Shown: positions 6,814 through 44,786 of the stretch, piece by piece
Position numbering within the stretch: position 1 is the first letter of the stretch
Layout of the letters: each line of letters starts with the position of its first letter
Program-made: the position numbers and the translations under genes
Notes under the pieces: generated by a model
What the model saw: only the letters and a program-made list of their open reading frames with translations
Told to the model about the DNA's origin: nothing
The model's database searches: none
NCBI RefSeq assembly: GCF_950066645.1
Contig: NZ_CATMFB010000008.1
Span: 115,935 to 179,934 of the forward strand
Direction of reading: 5' to 3'
Source of the DNA: an uncultured Thalassolituus sp.
Lineage (GTDB): Bacteria > Pseudomonadota > Gammaproteobacteria > Pseudomonadales > Oceanobacteraceae
DNA length: 64,000 bases

Positions 6814-8814
6814 TCAGAAAAGCAGGCGCACACCCACCGACGCCAGCGGCGGCAGGTCAGTCACATCTTCCCGCTCACTGTAGTCTGCATTCAGATAGCG
6901 GTAGCCGACGACGTTCTCGCGGGCGTAAAGATTAATCACTTCAAAGTAGAGATCCATATCGGCATTGCTGAAGCGGAAACTCCGGTCCGCACGGAAATCG
7001 AGTCGATGATAGGACGGCAGGCGCTCAGAGAAGGGATCTCCGTAGATCGGGTTGTACAGTCCCGCAGTGTCCGGATCTTCTTCAGCGCCCTCGAGAGGTG
7101 TGACCAGCTGCCCACTCTGATAGCGCCATTTAAGGCCCAGAGTCCAGATATCGGAAGCGCGATAGCTGGCAACCATATTAATCACCAGAGGCTGATCGTA
7201 GCTGTAGCGGAAGTCTTCGCCGGTGCGGTCGTTACTGCGCTCTGTCCGTGACAGAGTGACAGAGGTCCAGCCATACCAACGTTCGCTGAAGTCGGCATTG
7301 AGAAGCATCTCAATGCCAAAGGCACGACCGCTTGCATCATTGTTGTATCTGACGCCATCGCTGGTATCCGCTGGCCGGGCCACAATAATGTCGGTGATAT
7401 CTTTGTAGTACAGCTCGGTGGTCAGCATCAGGCCGTCACGCAGTTGCGCTTCGAGCCCCGTGACGTAATGAGTAGCGCGGGTTTCATCCAGATCCGGATT
7501 ACCGAACTCTGGTGTGTACTGACCCGGGTTTGCAGGCATGGAGTGGTAGCGGCCATACCCAAGTGTCCAGCGCAGCGCGTCAGTCAGCTGATATCCCTGG
7601 CTGATACGGGGTTCGACATACTGATTACCGGTGTAAGAGTCGTCACTGAGATGGAGCCCCGGGATCAGCTGCCAGCGCGCGGTCACGCTCCAGGTGTCTT
7701 TAATAAACAGATCTGTCTGACGGATGCGCAGTGTACCGCTGCCCTGCAGGGTTTCTGTGGCGCGCACCAGGCGGCAGTCGGCGGTAAATTCATCACAGGG
7801 AGGTGCTTTGAAAAGGCCCCGGTAATCCACCAGTCGTTCAGAGTATTCCAGGCCCCATGACACTTCGTGATCCAATTCCAGTGGATAGCTGAATTCGCTG
7901 CGGATGCCGTAGCGGTGACTGTTGGCATCAATATAGTTGCCCTGACCCAGTGTGAAATCGAACGCCTGTTCGAGATGAGAAATGCCAATGCGTGAACTCA
8001 GCCCCGACGGTGATACTGAATCAATCACCACGCCCTGACTGTTAAACATCTGTTGAGCTTCCAGACCACCAGTCAGAGCTGGGTCCTGGGCTGTAAAGTC
8101 AGACTCTTCAGTGAAATCCAGACCGGCTTTATCGCGCGCGCCGACAAACTGAAAACGAACGCTGGTCAGGTCACTGGGGCGATATTCGTAGCTGCCCTGG
8201 TAATCGTAAAACTCCGGTACCGTCGTGAATTCAAAATCGTCTGAGTCGACAATATTTTTCAGGTAATACTGAAACAGGCTCATTCTGCCACTGAGATAAA
8301 ACCCCTGATCGTCAGACACAGGCTGATCAATCAGAAAGCCGGCGCGGAGAAGGCTCAGGTCAATAATCTGTTGGCTGTCACGTAATGGGCTGCGCGACTC
8401 TGCGGTAATGACGGCACCCGTGGCACCGTTAAACTCAGGGCCGAACGCCGCCGGATAAAGCTGAAATTCGTCGGTCAGAGAATCGCTGAGAATGCTGGAG
8501 CCGTCGTTATGAAAAAGATACCCAACCGGAAGAAAATCCAGGTAGTAGGCGTTATCGTCGGGTGAAGAGCCGCGCACAGCGGGGCGGGCATCATTCCCCT
8601 TCCCGAACACAACCCCAGGCAATGACTCAAGTGCCCGCAGCGGATCATTTCCTGCCCCGGGTACGACCAGTAATTTGCGGGTCTCGGGTTGTGATTCCGT
8701 AACAGCAGGCGCTTGTGTGGTGACTTTATCGAGCTCGATTTCTTCTGCCTGAGAAGCCGTGGCAAACGTTACTATTGTGGAAGACAGAAACAGAAAAGTA
8801 GTACTGCGTTTCAC
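6814..8814 (-). CDS. TonB-dependent outer-membrane receptor, last gene of the light operon
   Basis: A 666-aa receptor with a signal peptide (cleavage after about residue 23, SQAEE), a plug domain (RALESLPGVVFG, AVRGSSPDDNAYYLDFLPV), a beta-barrel and a C-terminal Phe (GVRLLF). The plug contains PRPAVRG-like and NGATGAVI segments typical of the family. The substrate is unknown; there is no heme- or siderophore-specific signature I trust. Its start overlaps the upstream gene by 4 nt (8811-8814), making it the promoter-distal member of a twelve-gene run. That is an unusual location for a TonB receptor. The gap of 111 nt to the LysR gene shows no clear terminator. Confidence 0.83.
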   Translation of the reverse strand: MKRSTTFLFLSSTIVTFATASQAEEIELDKVTTQAPAVTESQPETRKLLVVPGAGNDPLRALESLPGVVFGKGNDARPAVRGSSPDDNAYYLDFLPVGYLFHNDGSSILSDSLTDEFQLYPAAFGPEFNGATGAVITAESRSPLRDSQQIIDLSLLRAGFLIDQPVSDDQGFYLSGRMSLFQYYLKNIVDSDDFEFTTVPEFYDYQGSYEYRPSDLTSVRFQFVGARDKAGLDFTEESDFTAQDPALTGGLEAQQMFNSQGVVIDSVSPSGLSSRIGISHLEQAFDFTLGQGNYIDANSHRYGIRSEFSYPLELDHEVSWGLEYSERLVDYRGLFKAPPCDEFTADCRLVRATETLQGSGTLRIRQTDLFIKDTWSVTARWQLIPGLHLSDDSYTGNQYVEPRISQGYQLTDALRWTLGYGRYHSMPANPGQYTPEFGNPDLDETRATHYVTGLEAQLRDGLMLTTELYYKDITDIIVARPADTSDGVRYNNDASGRAFGIEMLLNADFSERWYGWTSVTLSRTERSNDRTGEDFRYSYDQPLVINMVASYRASDIWTLGLKWRYQSGQLVTPLEGAEEDPDTAGLYNPIYGDPFSERLPSYHRLDFRADRSFRFSNADMDLYFEVINLYARENVVGYRYLNADYSEREDVTDLPPLASVGVRLLF

Positions 8815-9548
8815 TGCGGAGACTCCTTGTGAGACAGATCCGGATAAGTGTACCGGATCTCAGCATAAATACCCTCGCCGCTTTCTGTCCGGATATTGGT
8901 TAAACCCCGGTAGCGCAACAGACGCTGCGTTTTCAGATCGTAGGTCAGTTGCACAGGATCAAGCAGCCATGACAGAAGGCGGGACTTCAGACGCATTTCT
9001 ACGTCAAGTGTATTGCCGCTTTGTTGCAAAGGAATAAGACGGAAGTCTATCCATTCCAGGCGGGAGGCCACAGCAAACGAAAAACTGGCGGTTTTTCCTG
9101 CTATAAGACGTGGCCAGCTTGCCCGGACAAACTCGTCGAAACCAGCATCGATCACTGGGGTATAGTCAGGTTTGCCCACCGTTCGCTGGTCGGATGTACC
9201 CGCTTCTCTGAAACCGAATGTCCAGCGATTACCTTGTGCGGACACCGACTCACGGTAGTCTGACCGGCTATCGTCGAGTACAAAATCCGGAGTGGTCGGA
9301 GTTGCCTGATAGCGGTTCGATTTGGTGGCAAACAGCGCGCCGTCGCTGTCGAAATAGCGTACTTCGCGTGAGATGGGTTTCTGACCTTCTGTCCGCAGTT
9401 CGTGTTCTTCGCGATAAAGTAATTTTTCGCCGTCGAGAGATACGGCGGTGCCGCTGTAGATCAGTGTCTCAGCACTCATACTTTCTGAAGAAAAAAGACA
9501 CAGAAACAGCCACACAGGCGCTGTGCAGCGGGCGATGAAGGATCTCAT
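8811..9548 (-). CDS. Secreted protein of unknown function in light operon
   Basis: A 245-aa protein with an N-terminal signal peptide (hydrophobic stretch APVWLFLCLFSS, probable cleavage near SMSAE). The remainder is beta-rich and contains no motif I recognise. It is predicted periplasmic or outer-membrane associated. It overlaps the TonB receptor by 4 nt at its 3' end and DUF2878 by 4 nt at its 5' end, so translation is probably coupled. In related lipid-modification clusters a small secreted or membrane protein often accompanies the CFA-like methylase, but I cannot equate this one with a named family. Confidence 0.65.
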   Translation of the reverse strand: MRSFIARCTAPVWLFLCLFSSESMSAETLIYSGTAVSLDGEKLLYREEHELRTEGQKPISREVRYFDSDGALFATKSNRYQATPTTPDFVLDDSRSDYRESVSAQGNRWTFGFREAGTSDQRTVGKPDYTPVIDAGFDEFVRASWPRLIAGKTASFSFAVASRLEWIDFRLIPLQQSGNTLDVEMRLKSRLLSWLLDPVQLTYDLKTQRLLRYRGLTNIRTESGEGIYAEIRYTYPDLSHKESPQ

Positions 9549-10027
9549 AGTGTTACCTTTTTCCAGACCGTCGCAGCAATAAACATCAGGAGCGCCCAGC
9601 TGATCGCAATGACCACATAACCTGACTCCGAAATCTCCAGCGCCCCGAGACGGCTACCGGCGAAGTAACTGATGGGCGCGCTGACGGCGGCCGCAAGAGC
9701 AAGCAGTGCCGGCCGGGCAGTCAGCCAGCGGAGCGAATGCAGCAGGGTCGCAGAAAAGGCGCACCACAGCAGGGCCAGCCACAGAGGGATAACCGGCAGA
9801 GTCAGATCAGCGAAGGTGATCAGGCCGATATTCAGCCAGGCTGAATCGAGCAGAATTCCGCCGACAGACAAGAGTCCGATCAGCCACCACTCATTCTTCT
9901 GACTCTGGCGCAGGTGCCAGAGCAGAAAGATACTGACGGCAGGAAGCGCGACAGCGCTTCCTCCGACAACACAGGCAAACCAGCACAGCTGAAAGCCAAC
10001 AGCATTGATTACCTGTGGTCTGGTCAT
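9545..10027 (-). CDS. DUF2878 inner-membrane protein
   Basis: A 160-aa protein with about five hydrophobic segments, matching the DUF2878 pattern (MTRPQVINAVGFQLCWFACV at the start). DUF2878 genes are known to accompany CFA-synthase-like and DUF1365 genes in bacterial lipid clusters; no biochemical role is established. It overlaps the CFA-like gene by 1 nt and the next gene by 4 nt. Confidence 0.75.
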   Translation of the reverse strand: MTRPQVINAVGFQLCWFACVVGGSAVALPAVSIFLLWHLRQSQKNEWWLIGLLSVGGILLDSAWLNIGLITFADLTLPVIPLWLALLWCAFSATLLHSLRWLTARPALLALAAAVSAPISYFAGSRLGALEISESGYVVIAISWALLMFIAATVWKKVTL

Positions 10028-11277
10028 CAGAGCATTCCCAATACCGGATTACGACGGTTAAGAGGCTTGGAGAACATCAGCTGAACGTCGCCGATCACCC
10101 GTTCTGCAAAGCCACCCTCACAATAGGCAAAGTAGAAATCCCAGAGCCGGATAAAGTCGTCACTGTAGCCCTGTGACTTAATGTCTTCGGCTTTGCTCAG
10201 GAATTCCTTGCGCCATTCCGCCAGTGTTCTGGCGTAGTGCGGCGTGATGTCTTCCATGTGCGTCATTTTCATATCTGACGTGCGGGTGACTGAATTCTGA
10301 ATTGCCGTAATGCAGGGAATAAAACTGCCCGGAAAAATATAACGCTTGATAAAGTCCACTTCATTTTTCGCCTGCTCATAGCGCTGATCATCAATCGTGA
10401 TGGCCTGAATAAGCGCAACACCATCGTCTTTTAACAGGCGGTTGATGGTGGCGGTGTAGGTATCAAGGTATTGCCAACCCACGGCTTCAATCATTTCGAT
10501 TGACACCAGTTTGTCGAATTTACCTTCCAGCGCGCGGTAATCTTTTTTCAGCAGAGTGATGCGTTTTTCCAGGCCTTCTTCACGGATGCGTCGCTCTGCC
10601 CATTCGTATTGCTGTTCTGAAATTGTGGTGGTGGTCACCTGACAGCCATAGTGCTTGGCGGCGTGGATTGCCATCGAGCCCCAGCCCGTGCCTATCTCCA
10701 CCAGGTGATCATCTTCACAGAGTTGCAGTTTCTGGCAGATACGATCCATCTTGCAGATTGATGCTTCTTCCATCGTGGCGTCTTCGGCTGGAAAGATTCC
10801 GCTCGAATACATCATGGTCGGGTCGAGAAACAGTGCGAACATGTCATTACCGAGATCGTAATGCGCCGCGATATTCCGGCGTGAGCCTTTTTCCGTGTTG
10901 CGGTTCAGCCCGTGGAATACTTTCAGTGCAGCTTTCCCCAGGTTCGCGAGCCCGCCATCAATGTTATCGACGACGTCTTTATTACGAGCCAGCAGGCGGA
11001 TCAGGAGTGGCAGGTCTGGGCTGCTCCAGTCGCCGGTCATGTAGGATTCGCCCGCGCCGACACTGCCGCTCAGCGCGATACTACGGTAGGCCTCACTGTC
11101 GTGGATATGAAGTTGCGCATTGAGTTCGCTGTGGGTATTGCCGAACTGATACGTTTCGTCACCTTCAACCACTGTTAATGAGCCGGTATGAAGCTTCTGC
11201 AGGGTAGAAAACAGGCCGCTGCGACAGAAGCGGTCAATCCATGGCATGGAATCAGAACGTACGGTTAACGTTTTCAT
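10027..11277 (-). CDS. Cyclopropane-fatty-acid-synthase-like SAM methyltransferase
   Basis: A 416-aa class I methyltransferase acting on unsaturated phospholipid acyl chains. SAM-binding motif VEIGTGWGSMAIHAAK lies near residues 196-211; the CFA-type substrate region is FIKRYIFPGSFIPCI, and the C-terminus has YCEGGFAERVIGDVQ. It sits 5 nt after DUF1365 and next to the flavin oxidoreductase. This neighbourhood resembles the furan-fatty-acid (UfaM/UfaD) and singlet-oxygen clusters of alphaproteobacteria, so the product may be a methylated unsaturated or furan fatty acid rather than a cyclopropane. That is inference. Confidence 0.88.
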   Translation of the reverse strand: MKTLTVRSDSMPWIDRFCRSGLFSTLQKLHTGSLTVVEGDETYQFGNTHSELNAQLHIHDSEAYRSIALSGSVGAGESYMTGDWSSPDLPLLIRLLARNKDVVDNIDGGLANLGKAALKVFHGLNRNTEKGSRRNIAAHYDLGNDMFALFLDPTMMYSSGIFPAEDATMEEASICKMDRICQKLQLCEDDHLVEIGTGWGSMAIHAAKHYGCQVTTTTISEQQYEWAERRIREEGLEKRITLLKKDYRALEGKFDKLVSIEMIEAVGWQYLDTYTATINRLLKDDGVALIQAITIDDQRYEQAKNEVDFIKRYIFPGSFIPCITAIQNSVTRTSDMKMTHMEDITPHYARTLAEWRKEFLSKAEDIKSQGYSDDFIRLWDFYFAYCEGGFAERVIGDVQLMFSKPLNRRNPVLGML

Positions 11278-11282
11278 GGGAG

Positions 11283-12161
11283 TTACTCCTGTCGTGCTTT
11301 AAGTGAATCTCTGAGAGTCTGCTCCGGCAGATTCTGAGGATGGTCGTAAAAAGGTGCCCGCTTGAACCACAGTCGCGCGGCATTGCTGTAGATGCCCCAC
11401 AAGACCTTCATAGTCATCAGTGGAAATCTCCAGAGCACAGTACTCATGGTGAACGCCGTCAGGGGCTCGCGTTTCATCGTCATGGTGGCATCGAAATCGA
11501 GATTGCCCTGGTTCAGAGTCTGCATATGAATCAGACACTGCTCATGAATCTCAGGCATGCTCCAGACATACTCCATATCAAGTGGGTTGAACGGAGAGAC
11601 ATGGAATACCTTCGGAAAACGGAAGCGGAAACGTTTCAGGCCCGATGTGTTTCTGTGAATATGCTCAGGATTGATTGCCCGGGCAGACCGTCTGAAACCA
11701 GTGCTGAGCGTATAATGGAAACGTTCATTCCACGGCGTATTGGTAATTTCGGCAATAATGCCGAGTAACTGACCGTCATGTCGGTAACCGTAATAAAAAG
11801 TGACAGGGTTGATCAGGTAACCGAAGTAGCGCAGATTGGTCATCATGCACACAGTGTCCGGACGCTGACCGCAATCTTCTTCAAAGCTGTCGCAGACCTG
11901 AGATTTGAGATCAGAGAAGTCTTTACTGGCTGCCATGCCTTGCGGGCAAAAATAGTCCTGGCGACGGAAACAGACAGGCGACCAGCGGGACTTGCCCCAG
12001 AACGGGTGACGCGCAAATATATCCTCAGCGTCATCGAGATTCAGCCACACCATAAATGCCCGGTAGCACAGGGTATGTTCAACGGGCAGGAAACGCCGGT
12101 GGCGGACCTGTCCGGTGAATATTGCGCTCTCCATCACCTGATCTGCCGGCAGCGATGTCAT
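11283..12161 (-). CDS. DUF1365 family protein
   Basis: A 292-aa protein matching DUF1365 ([26 protein letters not shown] at its start, split here as GQVRHRRF...[18 protein letters not shown] in the middle). The family is almost always encoded between a flavin oxidoreductase and a CFA-like methylase, as here, and is thought to take part in acyl-chain modification; its activity is unproven. It overlaps the upstream oxidoreductase by 4 nt and is followed after 5 nt by the methylase. Confidence 0.85.
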
Positions 12162-13420
12162 GGCAGAGGCACTCCGAGCGCTTCGGTCACACGTAATGCG
12201 CTGACAACGCCGTCTTCATGAAAGCCATTAAACCAGTAGGCGCCGCAGAAATGGGTGCGGTTGATTCCACTGATGTCTCCGTGGCGTTGTTGCGCGGCCA
12301 TACCTTCGCGGGTAAATACGGGATGAGCGTAGCGGAAGCGACGCAGAATTGTGTTTTTGTCGATATCTTCGGTTTTATTCAGGGTGACACAGAAATCGAC
12401 CGGAGCATCATCAAAGTTCTGAAGCCGGTTCATGTAGTAGGTCACTGCAACACAGTCCTGAGTTTCCATGCCTATGTGGTAATTCCAGGCGGCGCGGGCC
12501 AGTTCGCGTTCAGGTAAAATCCGGCTGTCGGTATGAAGCACGACATCGTTCATCTTGTAGGGAATAGCGCCAAGAATTTCCTGCTCATCCATACTTGGAG
12601 CGTCAAGCATCTTCAGGGCCTGGTCGCTGTGGCAGGCAAATATCACCTGATCATACGACTCGCAGCCGCGCATCGAATATACATCGACCTTGTCGGCTGA
12701 ACGGACGACTTTTTCAACCGGAGTTTTAATATAAACCTGATCTTCCGGTAGATCCTGCAGGATGCGCTCGACATAGGTGCGCGAACCTCCGGAAATCACT
12801 TTCCATTGTGGACGGTCATCAACACTCAGCATGCCGTGGTTATTAAAGAATCGCACAAAGAAATACAGTGGAAATTCCATCATCATTTCTTCGCTTGCAG
12901 ACCAGACCGCAGCGCCCATCGGAATAATATAATTGTCCCGGAATGCGCGGCCATAGCCCCGGCGGTTAAGGTAACTTCCGAGGGTCTCACTGCGATCGAG
13001 AGTGTCGTCAGACAGCGCTTTCCGGGTCTCTTTATTGAATCTGAGAATATCGCGGATCATGCCCCAGAAAGACGGCCGGAAAATATTGCTTCGCTGGGCG
13101 AACAGAGAATTGAGCGTATGACCGTTGTATTCCAGCCCGGTTTTTTCGCATTTCACACTGAAGCTCATATCCGAGTCTTCACTGGCCACACCGAGTAGTT
13201 CCATCAGACGGATGAAATTCGGGTAGGTCCAGTCATTGAATACAATAAAACCGGTATTCACAGGCCAGGTACGATCGCCGATAGCTACATCAGTGGTCTG
13301 TGTGTGCCCACCTGCATAATCGTTCTCTTCATAGAGGTGAACCTCATATTTTTCGCGCAGAAGCCAGGCAGACGTCAGCCCAGAGATTCCCGCACCTATG
13401 ACCGCAATTTTTTCTTTCAT
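12158..13420 (-). CDS. FAD-dependent amine-oxidase-fold oxidoreductase (UfaD-like)
   Basis: A 420-aa flavoprotein with an N-terminal dinucleotide-binding motif ([16 protein letters not shown], residues 5-20) and the following GGHTQT segment of the amine-oxidase/desaturase superfamily. No signal peptide is present. In Rhodobacter-type clusters a homologous flavoprotein desaturates the methylated acyl chain on the way to furan fatty acids. The neighbouring DUF1365 and methylase genes make the same role plausible here. It overlaps both neighbours by 4 nt. Confidence 0.85.
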
Positions 13421-14208
13421 TGTTCAGTCTCCTGAGCTGATGTTCCGGTCCGGGACATTGCCCGGGTAAGGCGGTGGCGTAGAAATGCCGGAAGCTGTCC
13501 AAGACACCAAAGGACAAAAGTAAAGCGTTTCGGAAAATGGATATGCCAGCTGCGTCGTTCGAGCCCTTTAATCGTCGCGACCGCCGCTTCATCAGCGGTA
13601 ATCCTCATCGGCATGGGAAAGTCGTTGACGTCGGTCAGCGGGGTTTTAACAAACCCGGGGCTGACGACAGATACGTCGATGTTTAAGGCTGCGACATCGG
13701 CCTTCAGGCTCTCCAGAAAGTGAGTGACGGCGGCTTTACTGCTGCCATAGGCTTCGGCACGTGGCATGGCCAGCATGGCCACACTGCTACTGACTCCGAC
13801 TATGTAACCTCTGGGGCTGTTGCGCAGCAGTGGCAGGGCGGCGCCGACTGTGTTGACGAGACCGAAAAGGTTTGTTTCATGCACACGGCGGAACATAGCG
13901 GGCTCAAACGCCTCAACATCCACGTATTCACAGGTGCCGGCGTTGGCGATCAGGGTGTCCAGGCGCTGGTGGTTTTCTCTGATGATTTCTGAAGCCTTGG
14001 CCAGAGACGTCTCATCGGTAATGTCTGCAGGCAGCGCAGTGACGTTATTAAATCCGGCCGCCAGTGCGTTGAGTTTATCGGTGCTGCGTGCCGAAATATA
14101 AAGATGCCTGCACAAGGGTGCCAGGTGACGGGTCAGTGCCTCACCTATGCCGGACGACGCACCGGTCAGCCAGATTACCTGTTGCGACAATGGTAATGTT
14201 CTGCTCAT
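13417..14208 (-). CDS. SDR-family NAD(P)-dependent oxidoreductase
   Basis: A 263-aa classical short-chain dehydrogenase. The cofactor motif TGASSGIGEAL is near residues 15-25, the catalytic Tyr/Lys is YGSSKAAVTHF near 153, and the NAG-type motif is present (IANAGTC). The C-terminal region is extended and basic-hydrophobic. It is embedded in the lipid-modification operon with 4-nt overlaps on both sides. The substrate is unknown; an acyl-chain keto or hydroxy intermediate is a reasonable guess. Confidence 0.85.
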   Translation of the reverse strand: MSRTLPLSQQVIWLTGASSGIGEALTRHLAPLCRHLYISARSTDKLNALAAGFNNVTALPADITDETSLAKASEIIRENHQRLDTLIANAGTCEYVDVEAFEPAMFRRVHETNLFGLVNTVGAALPLLRNSPRGYIVGVSSSVAMLAMPRAEAYGSSKAAVTHFLESLKADVAALNIDVSVVSPGFVKTPLTDVNDFPMPMRITADEAAVATIKGLERRSWHIHFPKRFTFVLWCLGQLPAFLRHRLTRAMSRTGTSAQETEQ

Positions 14209-14651
14209 TGCATTCTTTCCTTCAGCTTGCGTATTACCCAGCCCAGTACCGGAAGGTGCTCGTACAGCAGTGCGCCGGCGTCGAAAATATCCTGATGCGC
14301 GATAATCAGATCGTCCTGCCAGCGAAGAATGCTGGTGCCTTCCACCGAAATACGTTTTTTACCCCGTAAAATGCGGGGGTGACGGAAATGCATCGTCCAG
14401 TGCGCGATGGTCTCTGAGTCCTTATTCAGGGTGCGGTGAAATTCGAACTCAATATCGGAAATATTGCGGTACAACCCATCAAAATACTGTGTCAGCTGGT
14501 CCAGCCCTCTCACGCTATGCAGCGGGTCGGAGAACACAATGTGGGGTGCATACACAGACTCAAGCTGAGCCCGGGTTACCGGGCCGGGCTGCAACTGCTC
14601 ATAAAGGGCAATAAACCGTTCCGAGGGTGACAGCGGCGCTGTGGTATTCAT
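14205..14651 (-). CDS. NTF2/SnoaL-like protein
   Basis: A 148-aa protein with the SnoaL/NTF2-like cone fold pattern (ERFIALYEQL at the start; HIVFSDPLHSVRGLDQLTQYF and FHRTLNKDSETIAHWTMHF further on). Such proteins are ligand binders or small isomerases and often accompany SDR and CFA-like genes in these clusters. No catalytic assignment is possible. It overlaps both the desaturase and SDR genes by 4 nt. Confidence 0.78.
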   Translation of the reverse strand: MNTTAPLSPSERFIALYEQLQPGPVTRAQLESVYAPHIVFSDPLHSVRGLDQLTQYFDGLYRNISDIEFEFHRTLNKDSETIAHWTMHFRHPRILRGKKRISVEGTSILRWQDDLIIAHQDIFDAGALLYEHLPVLGWVIRKLKERMQ

Positions 14652-15595
14652 AGCGAACTGTCCTTTTGTTTGCGTCCTTCCTCCAGAACATGGCGGGGCA
14701 CCGGGCTGAGATCATAAACAATGCCGACCCAGCTCATGGCTTTCAGCACCATGTAAGAAATATCGATTTCCCACCAGTAAAATCCCTGTCGGGCTGAGAC
14801 AGCCCAGCGGTGATGGTTATTGTGCCAGCCTTCGCCAAGCGTCAGTAAGGCGAGCAGCGCGTTATTGCGGCTGTGATCTTTCGTGTTGAAGCGCCGGGAA
14901 CCCCAGATATGGCCCAGAGAATTAATCGTCACCGTGGCATGAAACAGAAATACCGTGGAAATTACGAAACCCCAGACGACGAGTTGAAGGCCGCTGGTCT
15001 CCAGCTGAGGTGCCCAGACTGCCAGTGCTTCGCCGGATACAAACAGCAGAACGATCAGTAGCAGGGGCGCGAAGCTGTCATAGCGGTCCAGAAACCGCAG
15101 CTCAGGAAAACGGGCGAAGTCTTTTATACGGTGCAGTTGAGTACGGAAGCTGGCATCGCAGGTAAACCAGCCCATATGGCTCCACCAGAAACCGCGCTGG
15201 ACCGGAGAGTGCAGGTCTTCCTCAGTGTCCGAGTGCTGGTGGTGCGCGCGATGGTGCGCAGCCCACCAGAGCGGACCACGCTGTGCTGACATATTTCCGA
15301 GTAGCGCGAAGATAAATTGCCAGAAGCGGTTGGTCTTATAACTGCGGTGCGCAAAATACCGGTGGTAAAAGGCGGTAATTGCGAACATCCGCACCCAGAA
15401 GAGTGCCAGGCAAACCACCACCGCTGTGGCACTGGTGCCGGTAATCAGTACCCCGGCACACGCCAGGTGCAGCAGAATAAATGGCACGACTCGTACCCAG
15501 TTAAACTCTGTGCTGGTCATGTTTTCTTCCGCACCCGCGTAAGAATCGAACCAGCGTACGATGTTAAGCAGGGGCTTACGCAGGACTGTTGCCAT
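14648..15595 (-). CDS. Fatty-acyl (delta-9 type) desaturase
   Basis: A 315-aa membrane di-iron desaturase with all three histidine boxes: HRYFAH near residue 77, HHRAHH near 113 and HNNHH near 254. Membrane segments flank the boxes. It would introduce a double bond into an acyl-CoA or acyl-lipid, possibly making the substrate for the downstream CFA-like methylase. It starts 23 nt after the photolyase stop and overlaps the NTF2-like gene by 4 nt, so it is part of the same transcript. Confidence 0.88.
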   Translation of the reverse strand: MATVLRKPLLNIVRWFDSYAGAEENMTSTEFNWVRVVPFILLHLACAGVLITGTSATAVVVCLALFWVRMFAITAFYHRYFAHRSYKTNRFWQFIFALLGNMSAQRGPLWWAAHHRAHHQHSDTEEDLHSPVQRGFWWSHMGWFTCDASFRTQLHRIKDFARFPELRFLDRYDSFAPLLLIVLLFVSGEALAVWAPQLETSGLQLVVWGFVISTVFLFHATVTINSLGHIWGSRRFNTKDHSRNNALLALLTLGEGWHNNHHRWAVSARQGFYWWEIDISYMVLKAMSWVGIVYDLSPVPRHVLEEGRKQKDSSL

Positions 15596-15618
15596 AGGAT
15601 TTCGCAGGGTTGGTTCCC

Positions 15619-17043
15619 TTACGCCTCCAGAGTCTGTTTAAAGGCTGTCAGTGCGCGTTCGCGCGCTGACTTATGTTCTACAATCGGGTCGCAGTATCCA
15701 TACAGCGAGCGCTCACCAGCGCTTGGAAAATGTTTCGATTTAGCACTGAGTTTTGCCAGTTCGGGCAGATAACGTGAAATAAACAGGCCTTGTTTATCGA
15801 ATTTTTCCGATTGCGTGGTCGGGTTAAAAATCCGGAAATAAGGAGCACCATCTGCACCGGTCGATGCGCTCCACTGCCAGCCACCATTGTTGGATGCAAG
15901 ATCTGCATCGACCAGTTGTTCGAAGAACCAGGCTTCTCCCCAACGCCAGTCGATGAGCAGATGCTTGGTAAGAAACATGGCGGTGATCATCCGCAGCCGA
16001 TTGTGCATCCAGCCCTGGTCGAGCAGCTGTTTCATGGCGGCGTCCACAATGGGGTAACCGGTTTCGCCCCGGCACCAGCGATCGAAATCGCTTTTGTTAT
16101 TGCGCCATGGCACGCCTTCCGTTTCCGGCTTGAACGCTTTGTGTTTGCAGAGCTGAGGGTAAGCGACGAGTAAATGGCGGTAGAATTCGCGCCAGATCAA
16201 TTCGTTGATCCAGGTGTCGATGCCCTGTTCGCCGCCGCTCAGCATGCAGTTATTACGTTGCCACGCGGTGTGAATACATTGTCTTGGGGACAGGATGCCG
16301 AGCGCGAGATGAAAAGACAGACGACTGGTGCCTTCTGCATCGGGCAGGTCGCGGAGATCGTGATAGCGCAATACATCGCTGTCGAGAAACTCTGACAGAC
16401 GCTGGTGCGCCGTATTCTCGTCTGTGCTCCATAGCGGGTCTGAAACAGACTCCGGCAGAGCATGTCTGTCATTAATCAGGTCGCTGACGGCGGCAGAAAT
16501 AATGTCACTGGCCTGGGGAGCCGGAGCACCCAGAGGCGCAGGGCAGTAGTCCTGCATCAGACTCAGCCAACTGCGGCGAAACGGTGAATACACCCGGTAG
16601 GGGTCATTATTCTGAGTCCGTACTTCTCCAGGTGCTAACAGGCACTGATCGTGAAATTTGTTTGTGCTGACCTCATATTCCTGACACAGACGGCATACGC
16701 TGATATCCCGGTGGCGTTCGTTGATTTCGTATTCAATGTTGTAATTAAGTTCAGAAACATCCAGCGCACCCAGCACGTGCCTGAGGTCATTCTCAGAGTC
16801 TTTGAACAGGTCAGACTGAATGACCAGAAGCGGGATGCCGAGTTTCTCCAGCGACCGATGAAGGCCGTTGATTGCCTGTTTGATCAGATTTATGCGTCGG
16901 TCACCGAGGCCATGTCGACGCCATTGGCTCTCGCAGACAAACGTAATAGCCAGACAATCTTCCTCGTTGTCACGACGGGCATGCATCAGAGCAGGGTTAT
17001 CATGTACCCGGAAATCATTCCGGAACCATACCAGCCGTGTCAT
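15619..17043 (-). CDS. phrB: CPD photolyase PhrB (class I)
   Basis: A 474-aa deoxyribodipyrimidine photolyase. The N-terminal antenna domain begins MTRLVWFRNDFRVHDNPAL. The FAD domain has TGYPIVDAAMKQL, MHNRLRMITAMFL, DWRWGEAWFFEQLVDAD and NNGGWQWSASTGADGAPYF (split from the preceding stretch). The last motif is typical of class I cyclobutane-pyrimidine-dimer photolyases. It repairs UV lesions using blue light. It overlaps the regulator gene by 4 nt, so regulator and repair enzyme are translationally coupled. Confidence 0.95.
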   Translation of the reverse strand: MTRLVWFRNDFRVHDNPALMHARRDNEEDCLAITFVCESQWRRHGLGDRRINLIKQAINGLHRSLEKLGIPLLVIQSDLFKDSENDLRHVLGALDVSELNYNIEYEINERHRDISVCRLCQEYEVSTNKFHDQCLLAPGEVRTQNNDPYRVYSPFRRSWLSLMQDYCPAPLGAPAPQASDIISAAVSDLINDRHALPESVSDPLWSTDENTAHQRLSEFLDSDVLRYHDLRDLPDAEGTSRLSFHLALGILSPRQCIHTAWQRNNCMLSGGEQGIDTWINELIWREFYRHLLVAYPQLCKHKAFKPETEGVPWRNNKSDFDRWCRGETGYPIVDAAMKQLLDQGWMHNRLRMITAMFLTKHLLIDWRWGEAWFFEQLVDADLASNNGGWQWSASTGADGAPYFRIFNPTTQSEKFDKQGLFISRYLPELAKLSAKSKHFPSAGERSLYGYCDPIVEHKSARERALTAFKQTLEA

Positions 17044-17894
17044 ACAGGTTCTCCAGACGTAGTAATAAATTGTGTGATCATTGCGCCGGTACGTTCTGGC
17101 ATCACATAAAGTTCGCCCGGAGCACCGTTACTGTCTCCGGACAGAAACACAGGAATCTGTCCGTCGTTGCCTATGCTGTGCCAGGCTCTGCTCTCGCCGG
17201 CGCCCGCCGGGTGCAGATGCAGCCATATCCATGACACAGATACGACCGGCGCGAGAATCCGGATGTCTTCGGGCTGTAATTCGCTGCCGAAGTACTCAAC
17301 CCGAAACCCCGCTGCACCCAAAGCATAGGTGATCGCCAGAACCTGTAGCTCGGCATCGCTGTGATTGGTCGCCATTAACAAGGTCCGCCCTTCGCTGTGT
17401 TTCTGCTGCAGGGCAATCAGGCTGTTCAGCTTCCGTTTCAGCAGGTATTCAAAGCTTTTCAGAACTGGGCCGCTGTGGCTGTCGGCGCGCAGATGTTCCA
17501 GCACAGGTTGCAGGCAGCGTTCCCAGTACACCGCCATCGGATAACTGGCGAGGCCCTGCTGCAGCAGGTCATCAAGACCGCGTGCGCTGAAGCGTGAACA
17601 GGCGCGCAGAATCTGATCCTGCTGCGTATGCCAGTCATCGGCATCGTCCTGATGGCTGGAGGCTGGGGTCTGCAGCAGAAGTTTTACCTGGCGTATCGGA
17701 TAACCCTGCTCCAGCCAGTAAAGGATATTGCGCACAAGCTCGACGTGATCATCGTTATAGAAGCGATGACCTTTGGGGGTGCGCAGGGGCCTGATGATGC
17801 CGTAGCGTCGCTCCCAGGCCCGGAGAGTCACCGGGTTCACACCAGTGAGCCGGGAAAACTCGCGGATCGGATAACCGTCAGGGGTATCGCTCAC
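17040..17894 (-). CDS. MerR-family regulator, class II LitR/CarH-like with degenerate B12 domain
   Basis: A 284-aa protein with an N-terminal MerR helix-turn-helix (YPIREFSRLTGVNPVTLRAW, residues 8-27) and a C-terminal region with the layout of the CarH/LitR cobalamin domain. The B12 signatures appear lost. The position of the Co-ligating His aligns with A181 in SDAELQVLAI, and the W-x9-E-H helix-bundle motif aligns with S139...E149-Y150. Pseudomonas class II LitR proteins likewise lack B12 binding and depend on a LOV photosensor in trans. No LOV gene is seen here. It overlaps ybgA and phrB by 4 nt each. It probably controls the operators described below. Confidence 0.8.
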   Translation of the reverse strand: MSDTPDGYPIREFSRLTGVNPVTLRAWERRYGIIRPLRTPKGHRFYNDDHVELVRNILYWLEQGYPIRQVKLLLQTPASSHQDDADDWHTQQDQILRACSRFSARGLDDLLQQGLASYPMAVYWERCLQPVLEHLRADSHSGPVLKSFEYLLKRKLNSLIALQQKHSEGRTLLMATNHSDAELQVLAITYALGAAGFRVEYFGSELQPEDIRILAPVVSVSWIWLHLHPAGAGESRAWHSIGNDGQIPVFLSGDSNGAPGELYVMPERTGAMITQFITTSGEPV

Positions 17895-18865
17895 AGCGCG
17901 TTCCTCAGGCCAAGCTCGTAGGGGTGTGGATTCAGGTACACCTGCTGACGGGCATAATCGTGTACGCCGTCGTGGTGATTGAGATGATGTTTCAGGAGCG
18001 TCAGAGGGACCACGAGAGGAATGATGCCGTTGCGATATTCGTGAATCAGATTCTCCAGCTCGCGTTTGTCTGCTGGTGACATCCAGTTTTTCAGATAGCC
18101 CTGCAGGTGCATCAGCGTGTTCGTATGCATTTTGCGACTTGCGGGTTTGCGCAGCGCGGTCATCAGATGCTGAATATACTCGTCGGCGATCCTGTCGGCG
18201 TCGTTGCTCAGGTTGGCGAGCAAACGGCCGATGGCTTTGTATTCCACCAGACTGTGCGCCATCACCAGGTATTTGTAGCGGGAGTGGAAGTTGATCAGCC
18301 CCTTCGCGGTGACACCTTCCCGGACGAAGTTTTTCCAGTCGCGGTAGGCGTAAACTCTCACCATAAAGTTTTCGAGCAGAGCCGCGTCGTTCAGTCGGCC
18401 GGCTTCTTCAACAGGAAGCAATGGATTCAGGCGGGAAAACTCGGCCGCAAACAGCCCCTGGGCTTTGCCTTCCGGGTGACCATTCGGCAGGTAGCGTTTT
18501 ACCCCGAACAAGCCACAGCTGGGACTCTTCTGCATGAAAATAAATCCGCACAGATCGTCGAACTGTTGCGAGACGGTGTGCGCGTAGTCAGTGAGCTGAT
18601 GAGTGACATCGAGTTCAGGCGAGTCTGTGCCGACCGCACGGATGACAGAGTCCTCCGGCGTTTCTGATACAAGACGTATAGGTTCGCGTGGTACTGACAT
18701 GCCGATGGCGACTTCAGGGCACACAGCTCTGAATTCAAAGTAGCGGCTGAGTGTGTCAGTGCAGAAGCGGGAGCGTTTGTGACCACCGTTAAAGCGTACG
18801 GTCTGCCCCATGAGGCAGGCACTGATGCCCACCGGAATTTTGTCTGAAGATACTGCCTGAGCCAT
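17891..18865 (-). CDS. YbgA-like DUF523/DUF1722 protein, first gene of the light operon
   Basis: A 324-aa protein with N-terminal DUF523 (IPVGISACLMGQTVRFNGGH near residues 11-30, C-terminal to it QKSPSCGLFGVKRY) and C-terminal DUF1722 (FHSRYKYLVMAHS near 193). This two-domain form is commonly found beside photolyase and MerR genes in pseudomonads and relatives. DUF523 proteins resemble tRNA-thiouridine or FeS-type enzymes but no activity is established here. The SD (AGGAG) is separated from ATG by exactly the palindrome TTGTACAA, so a putative operator lies within the ribosome-binding region. It heads the twelve-gene run. Confidence 0.85.
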   Translation of the reverse strand: MAQAVSSDKIPVGISACLMGQTVRFNGGHKRSRFCTDTLSRYFEFRAVCPEVAIGMSVPREPIRLVSETPEDSVIRAVGTDSPELDVTHQLTDYAHTVSQQFDDLCGFIFMQKSPSCGLFGVKRYLPNGHPEGKAQGLFAAEFSRLNPLLPVEEAGRLNDAALLENFMVRVYAYRDWKNFVREGVTAKGLINFHSRYKYLVMAHSLVEYKAIGRLLANLSNDADRIADEYIQHLMTALRKPASRKMHTNTLMHLQGYLKNWMSPADKRELENLIHEYRNGIIPLVVPLTLLKHHLNHHDGVHDYARQQVYLNPHPYELGLRNAL

Positions 18866-18963
18866 TTGTACAACTCCTGAATAGAATGCTGTATAGGTTC
18901 ATTCTGGCAGTACCTTCTTGTACAAGTCAATAAAAGTTGTACAAGAATTTTATTTTCTGTACA
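18866..18963 (-). promoter_or_regulatory. Putative LitR-type operator/promoter cluster upstream of ybgA
   Basis: Five copies of TGTACA or TGTATA occur in about 100 bp. TTGTACAA is at 18866-18873, TGTATA at 18890-18895, the perfect palindrome CTTGTACAAG at 18917-18926, TTGTACAA at 18937-18944 and TGTACA at 18958-18963. Centre spacings are 23, 29, 19 and 19-20 bp. On the minus strand TTGACT followed about 18 nt later by CAGAAT is a possible promoter overlapping two of the sites. TGTACA/TATACA words are the known recognition element of LitR/CarH-type MerR regulators. The encoded regulator is two genes downstream, so autoregulation is likely. Confidence 0.72.
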
Positions 18964-18968
18964 AAAAA

Positions 18969-19367
18969 TCAGGACTCAGCTGACACCTGGCGTATAACGA
19001 TGTTACTGATCGCCGAAGAAACCTCCGGCTCAAGACCGACCGGCGGGTGCAGGATCAGTTCGACCTGGGTGCCACTGTCCGCCAATGCCGCTTTCAGGGT
19101 GTCCAGCTGCCCCGGAACGTCCTTGCGCAGGTGGCGGCCGGCAGCAAAAAACAACGGCAGGATATCAATTTTGCTGAATCCTTCTGTCGCCAGTTGGCGG
19201 ATCTGATCTTCCATCGAGGGGTGTGCCAGCTCCATGTAGGCCAGCTCGACACGCTGTGTATCCAGACCTGAGCGGATCCGGATAAGCAGATCGTTGAAGG
19301 GAGCCAGCCAGTTGGCGTCGCTGCTGCCATGGGCGAGCAGGACGGTGGCGTTTTTCTGTGCGGTCAT
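18969..19367 (-). CDS. cbiX: Sirohydrochlorin chelatase, single-domain CbiX
   Basis: A 132-aa small CbiX-type protein. HGSSDANW near residue 13 holds the N-terminal His, and LPLFFAAGRHLRKDVP near residues 75-90 holds the second conserved His, as in chelatases inserting Co2+ or Fe2+ into sirohydrochlorin. No other corrin-pathway genes are near. It overlaps the renalase-like gene by 4 nt and precedes the light operon on the same strand. Grouping with photolyase and MerR genes is seen in pseudomonads. Confidence 0.85.
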   Translation of the reverse strand: MTAQKNATVLLAHGSSDANWLAPFNDLLIRIRSGLDTQRVELAYMELAHPSMEDQIRQLATEGFSKIDILPLFFAAGRHLRKDVPGQLDTLKAALADSGTQVELILHPPVGLEPEVSSAISNIVIRQVSAES

Positions 19368-20341
19368 GCAAACATCTCCAGAAGTTGTTGTGCGGCATGA
19401 TTACCGCTGATCCAGGCGCCTTCCACAGAGCCGTGCTGACACCAGTCGCCCGCGAGAACCAGTCTGCACTCCGGATCGCTCAGCGAGCCCAGCCCGGGAG
19501 ACTGGGCGGGCACCGCAAACAACCAGCGATGCAGCCACTGTGAACGCACCTCCGGGAGTGGGGAGCTGCAGAGTTCTGTAAAGCTGGCGATCATAGCATT
19601 CTGTATCTGATCCCGGGGAGCGTCCTTATGCAGTGCGCTCCAGGCGTGGCTTGCCTGAATCACCCAGGCATCCGTATCTTCCCGGCCCGGCTTGCTGTTG
19701 TTGCGGGCAACCCACCCCAGTTTACTGTCGCGAACAAAGGCGGCATCAAAAGGAACGTCGAGCGGGCTGGTGAAGCTCATCAATAAGGTCCAGCAGGGCA
19801 GCATGTCGAGTGACCCGACCGTGTCAGCCAGGGCTGTTGCTGGCGGCAGCAGCGGCAGGGACTGCTCCGGCGGTACATTAATAATCAGGCCGTCAAAGGG
19901 GCCGAATGCCCGGTCGTTTTCATCCCAGAGCGTCCAGGCTTCGTCATAGTGGGTGCGTACGATTCTGCAGGATGCCTCAAAGTGATGAGCCGCTCCGATT
20001 AACTGGCGGCTCAGCGCTGTCATTCTCGGCGCGGGCACGTATCTACGGGTGTTATCCGGGGATGGCCCCCGATGCTCTGAGGTGATCAGCCAGGGGTTCA
20101 CCTGCCACTCCTGAATCAGATCTTCATTCTGCCACTGCTCAAGCGCGTGGCGGAACTCGAGCGAGTGTGCGCGCAGAAACTGTGCTCCCATGTCCCAGGA
20201 GTCTTCACCGACCCGCTTGCTGGACAGGCGGCCGCCAGGCCCTCTGGCTTTATCAAATACTGTGACTTCGGCCTGATCTTGCAGGCGCTGAAGAGCGGTA
20301 AGCCCGGCCACTCCGGCTCCGATGATCGCTATCTTCTTCAT
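19364..20341 (-). CDS. Renalase-like NAD(P)/FAD-dependent oxidoreductase
   Basis: A 325-aa flavoprotein with the N-terminal motif IAIIGAGVAGLTALQRL (residues 4-20) and KARGPGGRLSSKR near residues 33-45, a combination typical of bacterial renalase-like proteins. The C-terminal FAD motif is VLAGDWCQHGSVEGAW near 289-304. Bacterial renalases oxidise isomeric dihydropyridine dinucleotides. It overlaps cbiX by 4 nt. Upstream are TATACA-type repeats shared with the light operon, so light induction is likely. Confidence 0.82.
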   Translation of the reverse strand: MKKIAIIGAGVAGLTALQRLQDQAEVTVFDKARGPGGRLSSKRVGEDSWDMGAQFLRAHSLEFRHALEQWQNEDLIQEWQVNPWLITSEHRGPSPDNTRRYVPAPRMTALSRQLIGAAHHFEASCRIVRTHYDEAWTLWDENDRAFGPFDGLIINVPPEQSLPLLPPATALADTVGSLDMLPCWTLLMSFTSPLDVPFDAAFVRDSKLGWVARNNSKPGREDTDAWVIQASHAWSALHKDAPRDQIQNAMIASFTELCSSPLPEVRSQWLHRWLFAVPAQSPGLGSLSDPECRLVLAGDWCQHGSVEGAWISGNHAAQQLLEMFA

Positions 20342-20351: not shown

Positions 20352-20445
20352 TTGTATAAGAAGTTCGTGCTGAGTGTACGCTGATTGATCCGGCATATGC
20401 AAAACTATTGTACAGAAAAACCTTGTGCTGTATAACTAATGTATA
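20352..20445 (-). promoter_or_regulatory. Putative LitR-type operator between renalase-like gene and acyl-CoA dehydrogenase
   Basis: Copies of the TGTATA/TGTACA word occur at 20352-20359 (TTGTATAA), 20409-20414 (TGTACA), 20429-20434 and 20440-20445 (both TGTATA, start to start 11 bp). On the minus strand TTATAC-N17-TACAAT (within 20408-20436) is a candidate promoter for the renalase-like gene. On the plus strand TTGTAC-N17-TATAAC occupies the same bases and could serve the acyl-CoA dehydrogenase. Either or both divergent genes may be controlled. Confidence 0.6.
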
Positions 20446-26829: not shown

Positions 26830-28362
26830 TCAGAATAACGACATCTGGCCCGCCTCGCGGGCCTTTTTATTCTCCTGTTTCATGCGGGGGCCAGCCTTTC
26901 TGCTGCCACGTTTACGCGACCCGTGCTTCTCACCAATATCATTGGCCTGTTGGCGAAAATTGTCGTCCCGTATTGCGGTCAGCCTTGCCTTTGCCTGTCG
27001 GGATGCCTGACTGAAATCGACCAGTGGCATCGGGTAATCGTCGCCGATCACGACCTGTGCTTCCCGTTGCTGCCTCTGTGACATGAGCCAGGGCTGATGT
27101 ATCCAGTGATTACTGACGGATCTCAGTTCAGGTACCCAGCGGCGGATAAAGTGACCTTCCGGATCGAGGCGCTGTGCCTGAAGTGTCGGGTTATATATCC
27201 GTGGGATATTAATTCCGGTGGTCCCGGCCTGCATCTGTATCTGTGGATAATGGATGCCAGGTTCGTAGTCGGTGAACAGACTGGCGAGCCAGTGGGCGAC
27301 GGGCTGCCAGGGTTGCCATAAGGGGTAGGTCGCCACCGAGACAAGCATGGCCCGCATGCGGAAATTCACCCATCCGTGGTGGATCAGGTAACGCATACAG
27401 GCATCCACCATCGGCCAACCGGTTTTTCCTTCTTGCCAGGCGGTCATCATGTCCGGGTCGTATTCCCGGTCGAGCTGATTCGTCGCCGGATGCAGATTCT
27501 GTATTTCCATTTCCGGTTCGTCTTCCAGTTTCTGGATAAAGTGGCAGTGCCACCAGAGGCGTGATTCAAACGCCGACAGACTGGTATTCCAACGAACTGA
27601 GCGGGAACGCGCCCGCGCCTGCCGCAGACAGGTCACCAGCTCACGCATACCGATGCAGCCTGTTGCCAGATAAGGGCTTAAGCGCGAACAGCCGTCCTCC
27701 GCCGTCAGCGGTGAGCTGATCGAGCCCCGGTAAAACTCTCCCCGAGTATTGAGAAAACTCTGCAGGATATCGAGCCCCTGACGTCTTCCTCCTGGCTGAC
27801 GACCTGGGCAGGGCAGGCGGTTGTGAGGGTGCATCTGTTGCGGCCATTGCGAAGGCGGGAGGCTTCCGGGCGCCGAGAACGCCGGAATATGCTCAGGTGC
27901 CCCAAGGCAGGGTTGCGACATCCATTTCTGCCAGTGTGAGGCCCAGGTATCACGGTCATTGCCGGCGCGCCTCACGCCCATCTGAGCATGCTCACGCCAG
28001 ACGGTGTCGTGCTGCCTGCACCATTGCGCGACCGCTTGGTCACGCTCGTACGTCCAGAGGTTGCCGGTTTCTTCATGGCTGTGCAGGCAGAAACGTCCAC
28101 ACTCCGCATAAATCCGGTCGAGAATCTGAACTACGTCGCCTCTCGCAACCGACAGAGTGCCCTGTCGGAACTGCAGTTCGAGGTGAAGATCCTGAAGGCA
28201 CTCACGGATAAAATCCCATTGTCGCTGGCTGGTATCGGCCAGCGCCCAGTACTCGTCTTCGATGACATAGAGACAGATCACCGGGCCACGGGCGAGTGCC
28301 TCGGTTAATGGCCGGTGATCATACAGGCGAAGGTCGCGTTTGAACCAGACAACCTGCAACAT
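26830..28362 (-). CDS. Cryptochrome/photolyase family protein with basic tail
   Basis: I start it at the ATG at 28362 (510 aa, beginning MLQVVWFKRDLRLYDHRPL). A longer reading would overlap CRY-DASH. It has a photolyase antenna domain and an FAD domain with GKTGWPMVDACMRYLIHHGW, but the segment FESRLWWHCHFIQKLEDEP differs from CPD class I and DASH enzymes. The last 35 residues are rich in Lys/Arg/Gly (KHGSRKRGSRKAGPR), an extension absent from the other photolyases here. Substrate (repair or signalling) is undetermined. It is the fourth gene of the 31.4 kb photoprotection operon and starts 2 nt after the CRY-DASH stop. Confidence 0.82.
   Translation of the reverse strand: MLQVVWFKRDLRLYDHRPLTEALARGPVICLYVIEDEYWALADTSQRQWDFIRECLQDLHLELQFRQGTLSVARGDVVQILDRIYAECGRFCLHSHEETGNLWTYERDQAVAQWCRQHDTVWREHAQMGVRRAGNDRDTWASHWQKWMSQPCLGAPEHIPAFSAPGSLPPSQWPQQMHPHNRLPCPGRQPGGRRQGLDILQSFLNTRGEFYRGSISSPLTAEDGCSRLSPYLATGCIGMRELVTCLRQARARSRSVRWNTSLSAFESRLWWHCHFIQKLEDEPEMEIQNLHPATNQLDREYDPDMMTAWQEGKTGWPMVDACMRYLIHHGWVNFRMRAMLVSVATYPLWQPWQPVAHWLASLFTDYEPGIHYPQIQMQAGTTGINIPRIYNPTLQAQRLDPEGHFIRRWVPELRSVSNHWIHQPWLMSQRQQREAQVVIGDDYPMPLVDFSQASRQAKARLTAIRDDNFRQQANDIGEKHGSRKRGSRKAGPRMKQENKKAREAGQMSLF
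26847..26868 (+). terminator. Rho-independent terminator for the chemoreceptor gene
   Basis: Perfect stem GGCCCGC / GCGGGCC with a CTC loop and TTTTT at 26864-26868. It lies within the last codons of the convergent cryptochrome gene, so this short sequence serves both as coding DNA and as terminator. Confidence 0.85.
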
Positions 28363-28364
28363 GC

Positions 28365-31443: not shown

Positions 31444-31493
31444 TATACATTCCTATTCATTGTGTATAGGTAGTGTATAACTATGACCGTATA
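31444..31493 (-). promoter_or_regulatory. Putative LitR-type operator upstream of the (6-4) photolyase operon
   Basis: TATACA words read on the minus strand occur at 31474-31479 and 31463-31468 (exactly 11 bp apart). A further palindromic GTATAC copy (31443-31448/31449) lies next to the GTG start, and a looser one (CGTATA) at 31488. The same 11-bp arrangement occurs at 20429-20445 and 51351-51367. Confidence 0.65.
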
Positions 31494-44247: not shown

Positions 44248-44249
44248 TC

Positions 44250-44741: not shown

Positions 44742-44763
44742 GCGTTAACGCTGCAAACTTTGA

Positions 44764-44786
44764 AAAGGGCCTTCGGGCCCTTTTTT
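44764..44786 (+). terminator. Rho-independent terminator of ilvIH
   Basis: Stem AAAGGGCC / GGGCCCTTT with a TTC-type loop and a T-run (TTTTTTATT) on the plus strand, 22 bp after ilvH. Confidence 0.9.

Follow-up and report, generated by a model that had tools for sequence, protein, structure and literature searches.

The 64,000-nucleotide (nt) stretch of an uncultured Thalassolituus sp. analyzed here, called the window throughout, raises the question of whether twelve closely packed genes on its minus strand, running from position 18865 to 6814 and joining a LitR-like regulator and a photolyase to lipid enzymes and a TonB-dependent receptor, form one light-controlled unit, and which of them belong to it by function. 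We consider it probable, from comparison of sequences, that LitR-type repressors silence this operon in darkness, that a LOV protein would lift the block in blue light, that the encoded proteins would reverse light damage to DNA and tRNA and turn membrane fatty acids into methylated and then furan forms, and that the TonB receptor is a captured neighbor.

An open reading frame (ORF) check of the window found all twelve ORFs on the minus strand (Table 1), in the 5′ to 3′ order RudS, MerR/LitR-like regulator, photolyase, FA_desaturase, NTF2/SnoaL-like protein, short-chain dehydrogenase (SDR), FAD flavoprotein, DUF1365 protein, CMAS-family methyltransferase, DUF2878 protein, a secreted protein of 245 amino acids (aa), and the TonB receptor. 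Eight of the eleven junctions overlap by exactly 4 nt and one by 1 nt; the remaining two leave 23 and 5 nt between the genes. This bears out the sequence-only reading, made earlier on the same DNA, of twelve coupled genes with a 4-nt overlap at almost every junction; that reading had not named the first gene, which encodes a 324-aa RudS-type protein. The order was then compared across genomes, labeled G (G000 being the window's own assembly, 3.70 Mb in 30 contigs), and across fetched loci (L) and plasmid hits (H); g1 denotes the window's own genus and g2 to g8 further genera of the same family. The complete twelve-gene order recurs in 16 of 34 family genomes, the own one included, and is therefore not due to chance; G007 has eleven of the genes. 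Because of the tight packing and of four TGTACA boxes in the leader, the twelve genes are likely to form a single operon.

These four exact boxes lie within 103 nt, the first three of them spaced by 14 and 13 nt, while the window as a whole is not enriched for TGTACA (13 observed vs 9.8 expected). Class II LitR of Pseudomonas is reported to bind TGTACA-N12-TGTACA (PMC9758184). A TTGACT hexamer at 18930-18925 abuts one of the leader boxes, and in P. mendocina the -35 of P6650 is reported to be this hexamer (PMC9758184); it should be noted that 7 promoter-like matches, this one among them, stand against an expectation of 9.4. We also counted boxes (TGTACA, TATACA, or TGTATA) in the RudS-start regions of 23 family loci, each region being 260 nt long (250 before the start and 10 after). 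There were 101 boxes, whereas 500 mononucleotide shuffles gave 6.0 on average and never more than 15; box pairs numbered 23, with a shuffle mean of 0.004. A full box pair stands at the RudS start in 17 of the 23 loci.

The pair pattern is also found elsewhere in the own genome, at 10 sites vs 0 for a reversed control: two in the leader, one each before the AO2-CbiX genes, folE, and a CryB-like gene, and five others. Nine g1 genomes (own included) hold 55 such sites vs 3 for the control, and ten other family genomes 16 vs 2; for ten genomes from other families the counts are 16 vs 13. The folE site (L235, 1501-1524) lies immediately before the gene, which starts at 1593. Near position 1501 of L236 a pair stands by the start of a TetR-like gene, and near 1501 of L242 one stands upstream of a 369-aa porin-like gene; sites of these two types recur in several g1 genomes, and both may mark additional members of the regulon.

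The window LitR has a MerR-type helix-turn-helix and lacks any Pfam match to a B12-binding domain at E 0.01; it aligns with CarH, yet has no His opposite the His of the CarH GERHE motif. A second LitR homolog in the own genome adjoins a 156-aa short LOV-type protein, the two genes being divergent (L244, 373-1899; G000 contig C8 near 80433), as are pmlR2 and the LOV gene of P. mendocina, where the LOV protein beside the second LitR is reported to block LitR binding in the light (PMC9758184). A LOV-LitR switch likely controls the set. The LitR-type light control that had been proposed earlier gains support at the level of sequence from the box cluster, the LOV-LitR pair, and the shared box-bearing genes.

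The light-and-lipid core is of a known kind. With the pmlR1 cluster of Pseudomonas mendocina and the pplR1 cluster of P. putida it shares a class II-type LitR, phrB, an SDR, an FAD oxidoreductase, and ufaM, as well as TGTACA boxes of the operator kind and a further LitR gene adjoined by one for a short LOV protein (PMC9758184). The Pseudomonas cluster is reported to be light-induced, as are folE and cryB there (PMC9758184); in the own genome, folE and a CryB-like gene are preceded by box pairs. Unlike the Pseudomonas cluster as reported, the window has a desaturase gene between the photolyase and NTF2 genes, a TonB receptor gene at the end, and box spacers of 13-14 nt rather than 12 nt (PMC9758184). 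RudS, the fusion of TudS and DUF1722 also found here, is reported to occur together with LitR and PhrB in operons that respond to light (PMC11417400). By its annotated names, the Salinivibrio kushneri plasmid NZ_CP114591 has the same order (DUF523/DUF1722, MerR, phrB, NTF2, SDR, FAD, DUF1365, CFA, DUF2878) without desaturase or TonB, ending in a hypothetical protein and DUF3833. The Acinetobacter plasmid NZ_CP053948 shares the order acyl-CoA desaturase, FAD oxidoreductase, DUF1365, and CFA; that stretch has no LitR, PhrB, or TonB and an additional DUF1295 gene and second methyltransferase gene. We found no paper in the open-licence literature that brings DUF1365 together with photolyase.

The lipid genes resemble those of the furan fatty acid pathway of Rhodobacter sphaeroides and Rhodopseudomonas palustris, in which a S-adenosylmethionine-dependent acyl methylase, UfaM, methylates cis-vaccenate in phospholipids, the NAD/FAD-binding UfaD forms a conjugated methyl-diene, and UfaO (DUF1365) is required for the furan ring (PMC7380195). 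The R. sphaeroides ufaM gene (RSP2144) is not next to the ufaD-ufaO pair (RSP1091-1090), and a chrR mutant has raised levels of the products (PMC7380195). The window encodes one gene each of the UfaM (CMAS), UfaD (FAD), and UfaO (DUF1365) types together, a combination that supports, as far as family membership goes, the furan-type lipid module of the sequence-only reading. The part of the R. sphaeroides account available mentions no membrane desaturase (PMC7380195).

Does the desaturase belong to this module? The protein aligns with SCD1 over all of its His boxes (HRYFAHR, HRAHH, GHIWG, HNNHH). We examined the neighbors of its closest relatives among the best 80 of at least 580 confirmed matches, a scope that applies to the counts of these loci; 64 of the 80 loci had at least 4.5 kb downstream and were counted, and the 16 shorter ones were left out (a UfaD- or UfaM-like neighbor in 11, none in 5). 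UfaD-, DUF1365-, and UfaM-like genes lie on the same strand at 51 of the 64 loci, 4 have one of UfaD or UfaM, and 9 have neither. Judging by record titles, many of them metagenome-assembled genomes, the hosts of the cluster include gamma- and betaproteobacteria, Deltaproteobacteria, Verrucomicrobia, Planctomycetota, Nitrospirae, Gemmatimonadota, and Acidobacteriota. A desaturase match was present in 30 of 55 genomes (own included), and lies in the lipid cluster in 29 of these 30; the exception is a 36% match. The desaturase was also found in nine plasmid records, 7 of them from Acinetobacter, and the same 7 (L283 and plasmid hits H26-H32) carry the methylase about 2 kb away. As a side observation, 7 of the 9 plasmid desaturase records were typed as mobilizable, and the plasmid locus that was read has a cryptochrome/photolyase gene close to the desaturase and UfaM-like genes.

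A different explanation is that the desaturase serves membrane fluidity in general (as a cold enzyme) and is in the cluster without taking part in its pathway. The pathway is kept without it in the g2 genomes (absent from 6/6, of which 5 keep the methylase set) and in the Salinivibrio operon, neither partner is present at 9 of the 64 top loci, and the own genome has 12 FA_desaturase-family matches. This explanation nevertheless seems unlikely to us in view of a UfaD- or UfaM-like neighbor at 55 of the 64 loci, in several phyla, and of the adjoining lipid partner in 7/7 Acinetobacter plasmid records. As the count of 51 among 64 indicates, the desaturase often belongs to the lipid module and is not particular to this window, a point on which the sequence-only reading is supported; since the g2 genomes and the Salinivibrio operon do without it, it is not essential to the module.

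The methyltransferase was compared with E. coli Cfa, for which we take the relevant residues to be Cys139, Gly236, and His266, with Cys139 and His266 presumably binding bicarbonate. Opposite these the window protein has Ser159, Glu261, and Gln291, and thus neither of the two bicarbonate-site residues of a cyclopropane synthase. The His266 position is Gln in 104/104 UfaM-like rows vs His in 28/28 distant paralogs from the same loci, and the Cys139 position is Ser in the window and in 85 of the 104 rows and Cys in 11; the rows, like the tree described below, contain a few loci twice (L004 is the G027 contig, L005 that of G025, and L007 that of G052). The Gly236 position does not discriminate, being Glu in the UfaM-like rows and in 28/28 distant paralogs. 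Because Gln replaces the cyclopropane-synthase His, we infer that the enzyme does not make cyclopropanes. That it is nonetheless an ordinary cyclopropane fatty acid synthase, with cyclopropane lipids as the product of the cluster, could be argued from its best solved relatives, which are Cfa synthases, from its PF02353 match (263 bits), from the rows that retain Cys, and from V. cholerae, in which the Cfa gene VC1122 is reported to be induced by blue light (PMC5241685). We regard this as very improbable given the invariant Gln, the Ser of the window and most rows, scores far under the cut-offs of the NCBIfam Cfa models (266 of 600 and 263 of 400), and the UfaD- and UfaO-like neighbors at the 51 desaturase loci. 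The own genome has one full CMAS gene (264 bits), with partial matches of 39 bits (cut-off 27) and 21 bits. Separately, in hosts outside this bacterial family, a second, distant CMAS-type methyltransferase is often found within about 4 kb of desaturase-UfaD-UfaO-UfaM genes (L016, L022, L031, L043, L046-L048, L054, L065-L067, L070, and others), and could be FufM-like.

The desaturase, we infer, supplies delta-9 chains to the methylase. A bolder proposal, which we put forward tentatively and hold to be somewhat less probable than its negation, is that this subfamily is the dedicated and so far unnamed first enzyme of furan synthesis in many phyla, that the delta-9 chains it would make for UfaM lead to a positional isomer unlike that of Rhodobacter, and that a four-enzyme route stands here under a blue-light LOV-LitR switch. 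If true, the isomer would be a heptanoate-side furan, for example 7-(3-methyl-5-pentylfuran-2-yl)heptanoic acid from 16:1 delta-9. No description of the desaturase as a standing partner of UfaD/UfaO/UfaM was found in the open-licence literature, a weak absence, as most subscription papers lie outside it.

In the sequence-only reading, DUF2878, the secreted protein, and the receptor follow the lipid part. The first two do not count as an extension of it, as both accompany the lipid core in genera without this receptor homolog beside it. The secreted protein has no Pfam match at E 0.01 and no NCBIfam match; a fold search with its model returned DUF1849 and LolA-like rows, but also VioE and ependymin rows at similar Z, and thus gives no more than a hint of its function.

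The TonB receptor has a beta-barrel with an N-terminal plug, the features of a TonB-dependent transporter. Its homolog is present in 33 of 34 family genomes, the miss being G004 (80% complete, with a contig that ends after the secreted gene), and it is the next gene on the same strand after the cluster in 22 of the 34. Twenty-one of these 22 cases have the lipid genes, and in G028, which has none, the receptor follows the photolyase. In the 21 relatives with the receptor next to the cluster, identity is 51-68%, with a TonB-box-like consensus LDxVxVxG, and the closest organism-named relative (68%) is from a Thalassolituus sp. The other 11 genomes have the receptor separate from the lipid cluster. 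Three of five g6 genomes show the old site as CbiX-TonB-LysR, three of five g3 genomes as RudS-TonB, and a further g3 genome, G021, as TonB alone; the leftover g3/g6 copies are broken up, sit at the end of a contig, or are found at other places. The G025 receptor is split in two on other contigs, and the G026 contig stops just before the receptor. The g3 and g6 lipid clusters lie at other places, with no TonB beside them in the fetched loci, and G009 has the cluster at the site but without TonB. The trees also differ: the methylase tree splits the family into two starred clades, one of 22 rows at the TonB site and one of 11 rows (g3, g6) with Oleiphilus, G021 falling outside both on a long branch, and the receptor tree places all 33 family rows in a single starred clade, with a long-branch warning for g3 and the outgroup. 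Because it keeps its site where the lipid genes have been lost or lie elsewhere, and because the trees differ, the receptor follows the chromosomal site and not the lipid genes.

That the receptor could instead be a functional partner, with light triggering an uptake or envelope function alongside lipid remodeling, draws on its position as same-strand next gene in 22 of 34 genomes, on the conserved receptor in the 21 relatives and its TonB-box-like motif, and on its spacing. It overlaps the preceding gene by 4 nt in the window, and in 8/8 g1 loci with both genes the distance from the secreted gene to its start is -8 to 65 nt (in L121, for instance, the secreted gene stops at 16245 and the receptor ATG is at 16281, with 33 nt between), so that it is probably co-transcribed in its own genus, and such co-expression could be functional, a point that counts against reading the receptor as a bystander. 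We hold a partnership to be improbable, as g3 and g6 have lipid clusters without TonB, which stays at the old site in 3/5 g6 and 4/5 g3 genomes, G028 keeps TonB without lipid genes and G009 the cluster without TonB, the methylase tree divides the family and the receptor tree does not, and a motif scan found no box pair in the g3 and g6 TonB loci. In addition, three g3 loci have a hairpin between RudS and TonB (L209 by the scanner, whose loop limit of 8 nt missed that of L208; L207 and L208 by eye), and four of five g8 loci (L123, L125, L126, L127) have a conserved direct repeat TTCAY-N6-TTCAT before TonB, possibly the site of a separate regulator of the g8 receptor. The receptor is thus probably a neighbor captured into the transcript of this genus and not a member of the lipid pathway. 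The sequence-only reading had named in advance a receptor not conserved in this position among relatives as a finding that would tell against it; the position is kept in 22 of the 34 genomes, but the light-driven envelope or uptake function shared with the lipid genes is not indicated, since the receptor tracks the site. Two histories of the site may be considered: the light genes arrived at TonB, or they were later lost around TonB in g3 and g6.

We propose no ligand for this receptor. A sequence search of the PDB gave no match, and its structure matches siderophore, B12, heme, and pyrroloquinoline quinone receptors alike. An assignment as BtuB was rejected (TIGR01779, 38.7 bits vs a cut-off of 599.7), as was the idea, suggested by the upstream CbiX gene and this weak score, that it supplies B12 to LitR, which has neither a B12-binding match nor the CarH His. 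Three g6 genomes have CbiX next to TonB where there is no LitR; another tetrapyrrole link is possible but unsupported. Among the loci viewed, the displaced copies have no common neighbor theme (an ion channel, His_biosynth, another TonB receptor, a chemotaxis protein, a FadL family member, a helicase, and a histidine kinase). A FadL/TodX-family transporter lies near the receptor in the g3 loci L209 (10494-13527), L207, and L208. We found no TonB-dependent receptor tied to photolyase, blue light, and LOV in the open-licence literature.

Taken as a whole, the proposed sequence of events would be as follows. Blue light would act on the LOV protein, which would block LitR binding and so open the promoter. 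RudS and the photolyase would reverse light damage to tRNA and DNA. The desaturase would place cis double bonds in acyl chains, to be methylated by the UfaM-like enzyme; a conjugated double bond would come from the UfaD-like flavoprotein and the closing of the furan ring from the UfaO-like DUF1365 protein. The secreted protein, perhaps LolA-like, and DUF2878 may handle or sense the modified lipids, and the TonB receptor, an older resident of the site, would in this genus have come to end the transcript. Besides the spacing of the receptor gene and the absence of the desaturase from g2, several observations weigh against this proposal. Six of the 23 family loci have no full box pair at the RudS start, and the spacers of 13-14 nt differ from the 12 nt reported for Pseudomonas (PMC9758184). 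Two of the 10 pair sites in the own genome lie inside coding sequence and three more lie by genes without a known light link. The LitR gene is gone from the operon in G007, a g1 genome (locus L129: no LitR gene between RudS and photolyase, and a leader with only two boxes). The reactive-Cys motif of the short LOV protein is DCRFLQ, not NCRFLQ, and the canonical motif GxNCR is absent from 28 PAS places save one chance hit. Finally, the roles like those of R. sphaeroides UfaM, UfaD, and UfaO are assigned by family.

Table 1. Genes and candidate regulatory sites of the window (positions count from its first nucleotide)
Feature	Coordinates	Strand	Basis or detail
TonB-dependent receptor, GTG start, 4-nt overlap with preceding stop	6814..8814	-	TonB_dep_Rec beta-barrel
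Secreted protein, model resembling DUF1849 and LolA-type folds	8811..9548	-	predicted structure
DUF2878 membrane protein	9545..10027	-	domain match
CMAS-family methyltransferase, UfaM-like, Gln291 at E. coli Cfa His266 position	10027..11277	-	PF02353, 263 bits
DUF1365 protein, UfaO-like	11283..12161	-	domain match; PMC7380195
FAD amine-oxidase-type flavoprotein, UfaD-like	12158..13420	-	Amino_oxidase; role by analogy to PMC7380195
Short-chain dehydrogenase	13417..14208	-	adh_short
NTF2/SnoaL-like protein	14205..14651	-	domain match
SCD/DesC-like membrane acyl desaturase, subfamily adjoining UfaD/UfaO/UfaM-like genes	14648..15595	-	FA_desaturase
DNA photolyase PhrB (DNA_photolyase + FAD_binding_7)	15619..17043	-	NF007955, 548 bits, cut-off 506
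Class II-like LitR (MerR family), without B12-binding domain match	17040..17894	-	PF13411, 66 bits
RudS-type protein (TudS desulfidase + DUF1722)	17891..18865	-	PF04463, PF08349
Operon leader, four TGTACA boxes	18866..18968	-	boxes 18958-18963, 18938-18943, 18919-18924, 18867-18872
AO2 flavoprotein + CbiX-type chelatase, likely same regulon	18969..20341	-	domains, own box pair
LitR-type box pair TATACA-N14-TGTACA upstream of AO2	20409..20434		motif scan
LitR-type box pair TATACA-N13-TGTATA upstream of CryB-like gene (29911-31440)	31444..31468		motif scan

Around the twelve genes, the set may extend upstream to the AO2-CbiX pair, whose two genes overlap each other by 4 nt and are separated from RudS by a 103-nt gap. 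Further along the window, three photolyase/cryptochrome genes stand in tandem on the minus strand (26830-31440) behind their own box pair: a CryB-like DPRP protein, a CRY-DASH, and a further photolyase-family gene, the longest ORF of which overlaps the DASH gene. The region 44000-54000 has a lower G+C content (0.43-0.52 vs about 0.55 around it). An Rfam scan of the window gave no family at its gathering score.

Should the proposed reading hold, a light-defense operon known from Pseudomonas would be extended to Thalassolituus-like bacteria, together with a predicted operator. What our search of the open-licence literature did not find described is that the desaturase regularly accompanies UfaD/UfaO/UfaM, and a specific missing enzyme is proposed here for furan fatty acid synthesis across phyla. 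The receptor gene, in turn, would show how a neighbor can resemble an operon partner even though comparing the sites marks it as a probable captured bystander.

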